DNA of 35,598 nucleotides from Planctomycetes bacterium GWF2_41_51 (lineage in GTDB: Bacteria > Planctomycetota > Phycisphaerae > Sedimentisphaerales > UBA12454), in contig MHXZ01000042.1 in NCBI GenBank assembly GCA_001825665.1, forward strand, positions 1 to 35,598, given 5' to 3'. The position numbers and the translations under genes were made by a program. The notes beneath the pieces are model-generated. The model ran no database searches. It was not told where the DNA came from and saw only the letters and a program-made list of their open reading frames with translations. This document shows positions 2,235-3,576 of the stretch, piece by piece (the stretch's first letter is position 1; every line of letters starts with the position of its first letter).

Positions 2235-2279
2235 AAAAAAAAACCGACCTCTATCAGTTTTGCCAATAGAGGCCGGTTT
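2235..2279 (-). terminator. Rho-independent terminator of the histone gene
   Basis: The arms aaaccgacctctat (2241-2254) and atagaggccggttt (2266-2279) pair over about 14 bases with one mismatch position and an 11-base loop. On the minus strand the stem is followed by an unbroken run of nine U at 2235-2243. This fits termination of transcripts coming from the histone gene. Confidence 0.85.
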
Positions 2280-2297
2280 CGTTGTTTTGTCCTGCAA

Positions 2298-2373
2298 CAC
2301 CCTTGAGGGTGGAAACTGCCGCGATTGAAGCCGGGCTATCTTATTGGTAGCCCACCGGCAATCGCGACCAGTT
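2298..2373 (-). ncRNA. Structured 3' untranslated RNA between histone stop codon and terminator
   Basis: Read on the minus strand, a long imperfect hairpin begins three bases after the histone stop codon. AACTG (2369-2373) pairs with CAGTT (2314-2318), CGCGATTG with CAATCGCG, and GGGCTA with TAGCCC, with small internal loops and a roughly nine-base apical loop. It is followed by a second small hairpin CACCC-TTGA-GGGTG at 2298-2311 and then by the terminator. Three hairpins in a row is far more structure than termination needs. It could be a 3'-end-derived small RNA, a stability element or a protein-binding site. I do not recognise it as any named RNA family; it lacks tRNA features. Confidence 0.5.
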
Positions 2374-2376
2374 CGA

Positions 2377-2571
2377 TTACAGGTCCTGCGGCTTCAGTGT
2401 GCTGCGTCTGTTAGCCTTTGTTCTTTCGCAAGCGCCGTCAAGTATGCAATAAATTTTATTGCTTAATGCGCCAAGAGCATCAGCAGATGTCATCATCTTT
2501 TTGCTCTTTACATACGCTTTGACTTTGCTTGCAACAATCAAAGACTCTTTTCCAGCTTTTTTCTTTGCCAT
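2377..2571 (-). CDS. Bacterial histone (single histone-fold protein, 64 aa)
   Basis: A 64-residue basic protein. After a lysine-rich start (MAKKKAGKE) come a short helix (about 13-24, ASKVKAYVKSKK), a loop, a long central helix (about 29-54, ending ERTKANRR) and a final STLKPQDL. This order is the helix-strand-helix histone fold. The end matches the archaeal and bacterial histone signature R-x-T-x-x-x-x-D, which forms the second loop and last helix. The length matches the short Bdellovibrio-type bacterial histones rather than the about 140-residue fused DUF1931 type. It would dimerise and bind or coat DNA. GGAGG sits nine bases before the ATG, suggesting strong translation. It has its own terminator and is divergent from the DUF2007 gene. 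The fold is assigned by eye from the pattern. Confidence 0.75.
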   Translation of the reverse strand: MAKKKAGKESLIVASKVKAYVKSKKMMTSADALGALSNKIYCILDGACERTKANRRSTLKPQDL

Positions 2572-2855
2572 GTCAGATATCCTCCATGCAAAATAAACAA
2601 CAACAATTCCTTTTTTATCGGCCCTTTACGACAAGACCGACTTTATAGAGCGTATTTTGAATACTTATAAGACCTTTTGCAACAAAAATTTTCGTAAAAA
2701 GTACAAAATTTTGCATTTATTAGGCCTTTCGCGCTATTTTTTACATTATTCCCCCCCTGTTTTTGGTCGAAAACACCTTCGGAAGCTGTTTTACAGCACA
2801 CTAAGACTTTGTGTGCACAGCGGCTTATGCCTGAAATAAGTAATGGAGTCAGTTT

Positions 2856-3200
2856 ATGAATCCTGATGACAAAACAAATAATGAACAGAAATCGGCTCTG
2901 GAAGATTACGTTACAATAGCCATCGCTGAGGATGTAGACCTTGCGAATGATTATTGTGATATCCTTATAAAGAACCACATCCCGGCCGTTACCGCGACCC
3001 AAAAAAGCTATTCATCGAATATTATCGGGACAGCGGTTATGGTTCCGGATAGTTTTTTCGAACAGGCACAGGAAGTTATTGAATCCCAGCAATGTCTGGA
3101 CAGTTTTCTCGATGACGCCTTCAATGATACCGACAACTGGAACAATGAAAAACCTTCAGACTACGATAATCAGGGAAATAACAGCGATGACAGATTATAA
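2856..3200 (+). CDS. DUF2007-type putative signal-transducing protein
   Basis: 114 residues. The core, from about residue 18 (YVTIAIAEDVDLANDYCDIL) to residue 75 (MVPDSFFEQAQEVIES), has the beta-alpha-beta pattern of DUF2007, the small 'putative prokaryotic signal transducing protein' domain often found in tandem with regulators. The last 35 residues are acidic and low in complexity, rich in Asp and Asn, and probably disordered. GGAG stands about nine bases ahead of the ATG. The stop overlaps or nearly touches the next gene, so the two form an operon. The biochemical role of this family is not established; the assignment is to the domain only. Confidence 0.7.
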   Translation: MNPDDKTNNEQKSALEDYVTIAIAEDVDLANDYCDILIKNHIPAVTATQKSYSSNIIGTAVMVPDSFFEQAQEVIESQQCLDSFLDDAFNDTDNWNNEKPSDYDNQGNNSDDRL

Positions 3201-3225
3201 TTTTACAGATAGCGAGGTAACGAAA

Positions 3226-3576
3226 GTGGAAGAATATAAAACACATTTAGATAACTGTTTTACATCAAGACGACAGGAAGTCGCCGAAAGACGTTCAGAA
3301 TCCAGAAGAACAGAAGAAGACAGAAGAGTTTGCCTCGATAGACGCCGCGGACCGGGAAAAAGACGCTCTGACGAAAGACGATGCGCCGAAGAAGGTCAAA
3401 TGACCGACGAACAGTTCGAGTTCGTTATGGCTGTCGACCAGTATAAAAAACAGAATAATAAACCTTTTCCGAGCTGGACCGAAATTCTCGAAGTCTTAAA
3501 AGCTATCGGCTACCGCAAAGTTGCCGAACCTTGCTCAATAAAGGATTTACAGAATAAGCAGCAATCGGAAAATTAA
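3226..3576 (+). CDS. Small arginine-rich protein, unknown function
   Basis: 116 residues if begun at the GTG at 3226, which has GAGGT seven bases upstream. The longer frame back to an ATG at 3187 would overlap the previous gene by 14 bases and has a poorer ribosome site. Residues about 14-51 form a strongly basic, arginine-doublet repeat (RRQEVAERRSESRR, EEDRR, DRRRGPGKRRSDERR), probably a charged helix able to bind nucleic acid or acidic protein. The last 60 residues (from MTDEQFEFVMAVDQYKKQNN) are a mixed-charge globular region containing FPSWTEILEVLKAIGYRKV, which resembles a small winged or helical domain. I do not recognise the family. Coupling to the DUF2007 gene hints at a shared task, perhaps partner or regulator. 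Confidence 0.65.
   Translation: MEEYKTHLDNCFTSRRQEVAERRSESRRTEEDRRVCLDRRRGPGKRRSDERRCAEEGQMTDEQFEFVMAVDQYKKQNNKPFPSWTEILEVLKAIGYRKVAEPCSIKDLQNKQQSEN

Follow-up and report, generated by a model that had tools for sequence, protein, structure and literature searches.

An FtF-type histone gene conserved in a planctomycete order and the possible control of its mRNA leader by CsrA

The histone locus and its surroundings

The window analyzed here is a 35,598-nt stretch of Planctomycetes bacterium GWF2_41_51 (contig MHXZ01000042.1, positions 1 to 35,598), in which we followed up a short minus-strand gene and the signals around it. An earlier note on this DNA had described the gene as encoding a basic bacterial histone of 64 residues, equipped with a GGAGG ribosome site and a dedicated terminator. 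We found all of these elements in place: the ORF starts with ATG and encodes 64 residues (MAKKKAGKESLIVASKVKAYVKSKKMMTSADALGALSNKIYCILDGACERTKANRRSTLKPQDL) with 15 K+R vs 5 D+E, the GGAGG is located at 2585-2581 (minus strand), 9 nt 5' of the ATG, and an 18-pair hairpin followed by T's occupies 2280-2240 (minus strand). The features of the locus are the following:

2240-2280, minus strand: intrinsic terminator whose stem of 18 pairs closes a 5-nt loop and is followed by a T run; it lies between the histone gene and the next gene
2377-2571, minus strand: histone gene, 64 aa, very probably of the FtF-type alpha3 bacterial kind by sequence, profile and predicted fold
2572-2580, minus strand: spacer of 9 nt between the ribosome site and the ATG
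2581-2588, minus strand: CATGGAGG, holding the GGAGG Shine-Dalgarno (2585-2581) within the conserved (A/G)CANGGAGG; candidate CsrA site
2608-2612, minus strand: AAGGA, an ANGGA motif 25 nt away from the GGA at the ribosome site; candidate CsrA site, the upstream one of the two
2617-2641, minus strand: leader hairpin GUCGGUCUU-GUCGUAA-AGGGCCGAU, close to where the mRNA is predicted to start
2654-2659, minus strand: predicted -10 element CAAAAT; family members keep it at this position, with 17-nt spacing
2677-2682, minus strand: predicted -35 element TTGCAA, with a conserved T-rich tract before it (ATTTTTTTGTTGCAAA in much of the order)
2702-2715, no strand assigned: TACAAAATTTTGCA, a near-palindrome that reads TGCAAAATTTTGCA in many relatives and lies upstream of the predicted promoter

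The histone gene stands alone, with a co-oriented gene for a GT4/starch-synthase-like (GlgA-like) protein on one side (644-1951) and, on the other, a divergent gene pair (2856-3200 and about 3223-3576) for which no Pfam match was obtained. Synteny with the GT4 gene is kept at 71 of 80 loci, and the terminator retains its position in most family members. The divergent neighbors are also conserved in the order, the second one with an Arg/Glu-rich region (RRSESRRTEEDRR...). Histone genes lacking the usual neighbors, and thus not syntenic with the window, occur at loci L083, L084, L089, L097 and L024; the genome of the latter (G036) has two histone matches, and the DNA directly upstream of L024 resembles the end of a cold-shock protein gene. 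Between its stop codon and the terminator, the window gene carries a strong extra hairpin (2310-2375, minus strand; CGCGATTG...CAATCGCG). We considered it as a regulatory 3' UTR element and rejected it in this role, as among 12 sequences compared it is present only in the window and the close relative L005, and it looks like a recent insertion. The Rfam scan of the window yielded no match.

Upstream of the gene, most of 86 distinct stretches share one layout: a T-rich tract is followed by TTGCAA, which about 17 nt separate from a hexamer resembling CAAAAT or, in other families, TGTAAT. This layout is promoter-like; the predicted histone promoter was too weak to be detected in a generic promoter scan of the window. 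The near-palindrome at 2702-2715, which lies in the divergent intergenic region, is a possible binding site for a regulator or another protein.

Predicted fold and class of the histone

The closing signature R-x-T-x-x-x-x-D named in the earlier note is formed by residues R56-S57-T58-L59-K60-P61-Q62-D63 (R56-D63 clamp). The AlphaFold2 monomer model (mean pLDDT 78.5) displays the expected order of three histone helices, i.e., helix 1 (11-23), helix 2 (30-53) and a short helix 3 (61-63), preceded by a basic N-terminal tail (residues 1-8) that is disordered. The model comprises a single fold with a shortened helix 2 and a helix 3 truncated to about one turn, as is typical of FtF alpha3 histones. 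Scans of the protein against Pfam, NCBIfam and PHROGs gave no match. Yet, the ORF is not a chance one, since it is encoded in 55 of 59 related genomes and its dN is far below dS (median dN/dS 0.12, 991 pairs).

A phmmer search of the protein against all PDB chains matched only four sequences, all of them prokaryotic histones: HLp of Leptospira perolatii (9qt0; E 2.4e-17), HBb (two sequences; 8e-4) and HTkC (0.021). The profile built from 81 relatives gave the same ranking (HLp 1e-26, HBb 1.5e-11, HTkC 1.9e-7), its best matches being prokaryotic histones and not an unrelated family. When the monomer model was set against solved structures, including the archaeal and Bdellovibrio ones suggested in the earlier note, a histone fold was recovered, with HLp as the top hit of both Foldseek (54% identity, TM 0.72) and VIA-align (Z 6.9, 2.1 A, 56 residues), followed by HTkC (Z 6.5) and HBb, and with eukaryotic histones at Z of about 5. 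The top seven matches are exactly the known alpha3 histones, all above the eukaryotic ones. Their Z-scores of 6-7 are moderate, which is no surprise for so short a chain (64 residues) whose tail is disordered. By sequence and predicted fold, the nearest solved relative is HLp and not HBb.

FtF histones are described as defined by a face-to-face tetramer (a torus-shaped homotetramer) and are tied to an arginine and an asparagine at the end of helix 2 together with R-x-T-x-x-x-x-D, while the bacterial dimer histones are presented as devoid of the R and N of the dimer-dimer interface (PMC11390915). For HLp, R49, N53 and R55 are given as tetramer contacts, and A13, S14, K15, K17, K21, T27, T56 and T57 as DNA contacts (PMC12701072). 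In the phmmer alignment, HLp R49/N53/R55/D62 correspond to R50/N54/R56/D63 of the window histone and the DNA contacts to A14, S15, K16, K18, K22, T28, S57 and T58. No variation was seen among 87 distinct homologue cores at L11, V13, S15, K16, D45, R50, N54, R56, T58 and D63, and A14, S15, K16, K18, K22, T28 and T58, which match DNA-contact positions of HLp, are nearly invariant. The earlier note was therefore right in recognizing a short bacterial histone, as sequence, profile and fold agree, but the Bdellovibrio dimer, with which it drew a parallel, is not the best comparison: because R50, N54, R56, T58 and D63 are invariant in the 87 homologues, the Leptospira tetramer replaces that dimer as the parallel.

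In favor of a dimer histone of the HBb kind, which would bend DNA as a dimer, fold and length are alike, HBb comes second by sequence and profile, and RxTxxxxD is common to both; we regard it as highly improbable, as HLp is far closer in sequence, and R50 and N54, reported as absent from bacterial dimers (PMC11390915), are present and invariant, whereas HBb has S and D at these positions in the phmmer alignment. The PDB title of HLp ("DUF1931 domain-containing protein") and the weak PF09123 matches of some family members (best E 0.001) could hint at a histone-fold protein with no part in organizing DNA, e.g., a relative of the DUF1931-type pseudodimers or a protein-protein adaptor. This is very unlikely, as the window protein is a singlet of 64 residues with one fold instead of two fused ones and no PF09123 match, the positions described as DNA contacts in HLp (PMC12701072) are nearly invariant here, and the N-terminal tails are Lys-rich. 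We are highly confident that the gene encodes an FtF-class DNA-organizing histone. Histones of this class have already been published for Planctomycetota, and the window protein adds to them. The class residues and the 54% identity to HLp point to a homotetramer, and by analogy with HLp, described as an FtF tetramer that wraps about 60 bp of DNA (PMC12701072), the window histone probably wraps a similar length.

Distribution and coexistence with HU

Among genomes of good quality from the Sedimentisphaerales-like order of Planctomycetota, to which the close relatives belong, 40 of 41 possess the histone gene, and close genomes nearly always have it in one copy. The named relatives carrying it are Planctomycetota, Phycisphaerae, Sedimentisphaerales and Anaerohalosphaeraceae MAGs. 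In a class-wide sample it was detected in 41 of 198 genomes, 31 of which are from the window's order, and in a phylum-wide sample in 124 of 294. Two candidates for a second histone in the window genome (L002 and L003) are weak and their frames are broken by stops, and they were read as chance. HU is likewise found in 40 of the 41 good genomes of the order, with three HU-family matches in the window genome; since this genome also encodes HU, the histone is not its sole candidate nucleoid protein. The coexistence of histone and HU distinguishes this lineage from Leptospira as portrayed in PMC12701072. The suggestion that the histone may be an abundant chromosomal protein agrees with its near-universality, purifying selection, conserved promoter-like arrangement and strong ribosome site.

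The N-terminal tails that precede the fold differ in length, the shortest having a few residues and the longest about 35, rich in Lys and Ala. Several relatives (L025, L028, L030, L097 and others) have tails of 25-35 residues with KKAAPA- or KKVA-type repeats that are H1-like, while throughout the window's own family the tail is short. Planctomycete-type histones were also noticed on contigs titled Kuenenia, Actinomycetes, Nitrospira or Deltaproteobacteria (L094, L092, L093, L087, L082). The proteins of L094 and L092 are also encoded, in identical form, by members (L026, L140) of the window's order or class; some of these titles or bins are therefore probably wrong.

Architecture of the mRNA leader

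Downstream of the predicted promoter, the leader is about 75 nt long and combines a hairpin with two GGA sites, a conserved organization that appears to be unreported; no second copy of it was found elsewhere in the window genome. In the window, the AAGGA at 2612-2608 lies 3' of the hairpin and not in its loop. In one subgroup of leaders (f7), a GGA is located between the hairpin arms. In another (f6), ANGGA is replaced upstream by TATNGGAAC, and a 4-8-pair hairpin lies 1-5 nt 5' of a fixed TTATNGGAAC in each of the 14 leaders; the stem sequences are largely different, and shuffles give 5.2 of 14. The f7 loop-GGA hairpins exceed shuffles in stability by a modest margin only (mean z -1.2). RNAalifold returned no useful consensus structure for plain MAFFT alignments of two leader subgroups, probably due to differing loop lengths, and an anchored stem test was applied in its place.

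The ribosome-site consensus of 80 leaders is (A/G)CANGGAGG, with C (65) or T (15) at -3, A (79) at -2 and an invariant GGA, this invariance being selected, as the leaders were picked by GGA at the ribosome site. The base directly before the GGA (-1) varies (T 58, G 9, C 7, A 6). Of the window's family, which counts 11 members, 10 have the upstream ANGGA at a distance of 22-25 nt to the second site, and the family member L014 has no upstream GGA. For f7, the upstream ANGGA was located in loops, 36-44 nt away, by a search that looked for A.GGA first and is selective to that extent; in an unselected leader alignment, GGA forms near-invariant columns.

We compared the histone leaders of the order with 276 control genes from the same contigs, for which a GGA-type ribosome site was likewise required. 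At that site, 80% of the histone leaders vs 8% of controls have CANGGA; a further-upstream ANGGA is found in 65% vs 20%, and both together in 55% vs 0.7%, the percentages being uncorrected for phylogeny, with related species as non-independent samples. The exact CATGGAGG occurs in none of 26 control genes with GGAGG sites and, before an ATG, 8 times in the 4.8-Mb genome. The 16S 3' tail of this genome (GGATCACCTCCTTTC) would pair with AAAGGAGG and not with CATGGAGG, leaving the CA(T) before GGAGG unpaired. At 19 readable loci outside the order, histone genes mostly have other sites, e.g., AAGGAGG, GGGAGGTGA or GGGAGGTG, and no such leader. We also considered an upstream mini-ORF (ATGGAGG..., read in many leaders as M-E-x-x-stop) and rejected it, as it does not stay in one frame with respect to the histone and is without a stop in many copies.

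Possible control by CsrA

The published CsrA motifs are ANGGAN and RUACARGGAUGU, and leaders repressed by CsrA, such as those of glgC and hag, carry a GGA over the ribosome site and another one upstream near a hairpin (PMC7652899). In the window leader, an ANGGA-type GGA overlaps the Shine-Dalgarno (CATGGAGG, 2588-2581). Of the order's 41 good genomes, 40 have a csrA gene. Two copies are encoded in the window genome (G000 C42:95775-95933 and C61:24465-24608), one of them on the histone's own contig at a distance of about 93 kb, and the genome's CsrA retains the RNA-binding residues L4 and R44 (PF02599, E 1.9e-24). We propose repression by CsrA because the leader has two ANGGA sites with a free second base in a design similar to the published ones, and because csrA occurs in 40 of 41 genomes.

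In the overall model, two histone chains would form a head-to-tail histone dimer, and a pair of such dimers would meet face to face, with R50, N54 and R56 as the contacts, to give a ring-like tetramer. The tetramer would bind DNA without sequence specificity, probably wrapping about 60 bp as HLp does, and would share with HU the role of an architectural DNA protein, one that the whole order has conserved. The strong-looking predicted promoter would yield an mRNA that carries the histone gene alone behind a leader of about 75 nucleotides, on which a CsrA dimer might bridge the upstream ANGGA and the (A/G)CANGGAGG over the ribosome-binding sequence and so block initiation, until CsrA is titrated away.

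The leader may, alternatively, be unrelated to CsrA and belong to a constitutively and highly expressed FtF histone gene, with the 5' hairpin guarding the mRNA from decay and ACANGGAGG acting as a lineage-specific strong ribosome site. Hairpins at the 5' end and strong Shine-Dalgarno sequences are common on highly expressed mRNAs, and the f6 hairpins, found at a fixed place in 14 of 14 leaders vs 5.2 expected, with largely different sequences, fit a purely structural role. Yet, a generic strong Shine-Dalgarno leaves the conserved CA before a variable base unexplained, as well as the conserved leader GGA with its variable neighbor; moreover, CATGGAGG is absent from all 26 GGAGG controls, and most of the readable histone genes outside the order have other sites, e.g., AAGGAGG or GGGAGGTGA. 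We consider this explanation a serious possibility, although one short of probable. Repression of histone translation by CsrA is in our opinion the best reading of these sequences, and we deem it about evenly poised between true and false. The broader claim, that a DNA-wrapping histone is repressed by CsrA throughout a planctomycete order, coupling chromatin supply post-transcriptionally to carbon status, falls marginally short of an even prospect. The statement as a whole, i.e., an FtF tetramer acting as nucleoid histone beside HU with its supply under CsrA control, might equally well hold or fail.

A literature search of limited extent retrieved no relevant report in which CsrA is connected to histones of bacteria, to nucleoid proteins or to planctomycetes. 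Known bacterial histones are few, and regulation of their synthesis seems unaddressed in those parts of the published work available to us. An order-wide core histone beside HU marks a lineage where both architectural systems coexist, unlike in Leptospira as published. If the leader is indeed controlled by CsrA, the Csr system would be linked to chromatin dosage and histone supply tied to carbon metabolism. For specialists, the interest lies in the conserved leader.

Comparison with known systems

The window histone resembles HLp (9qt0, 9qt1, 9qt2; PMC12701072) in fold and length, with 54% identity over 56 aligned columns, and has in common with it, as far as the HLp contacts are described, the equivalents of R50/N54/R56/D63 and most DNA-contact residues. 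It differs in its genomic setting: Leptospira is reported to be without HU, with hlp often near smc (PMC12701072), whereas the window genome has HU and its histone gene sits between the GT4/GlgA-like gene and a divergent gene pair. HBb (Bd0055; 8cmp, 8fvx, 9ezz, 9f0e) has the same alpha3 fold, short third helix and RxTxxxxD loop, but shows 33-39% identity in fold alignments, is devoid of R50 and N54, and acts as a DNA-bending dimer. HTkC of Thermococcus kodakarensis (9f2c) belongs to the FtF tetramer class and is similar in fold (Z 6.5), yet it is archaeal and only about 31% identical, and tails are generally absent from archaeal FtF histones. As for the leader, those of E. coli glgC and B. 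subtilis hag likewise contain at least two GGA sites, one of them over the ribosome site, and in glgC, as in the f7 subgroup, the other GGA lies between the hairpin arms. Unlike in glgC and hag, CsrA would here act on the mRNA of a chromatin protein, and the window's family has its upstream site beside the hairpin and not inside the loop, where the second GGA of CsrA-repressed leaders typically lies.
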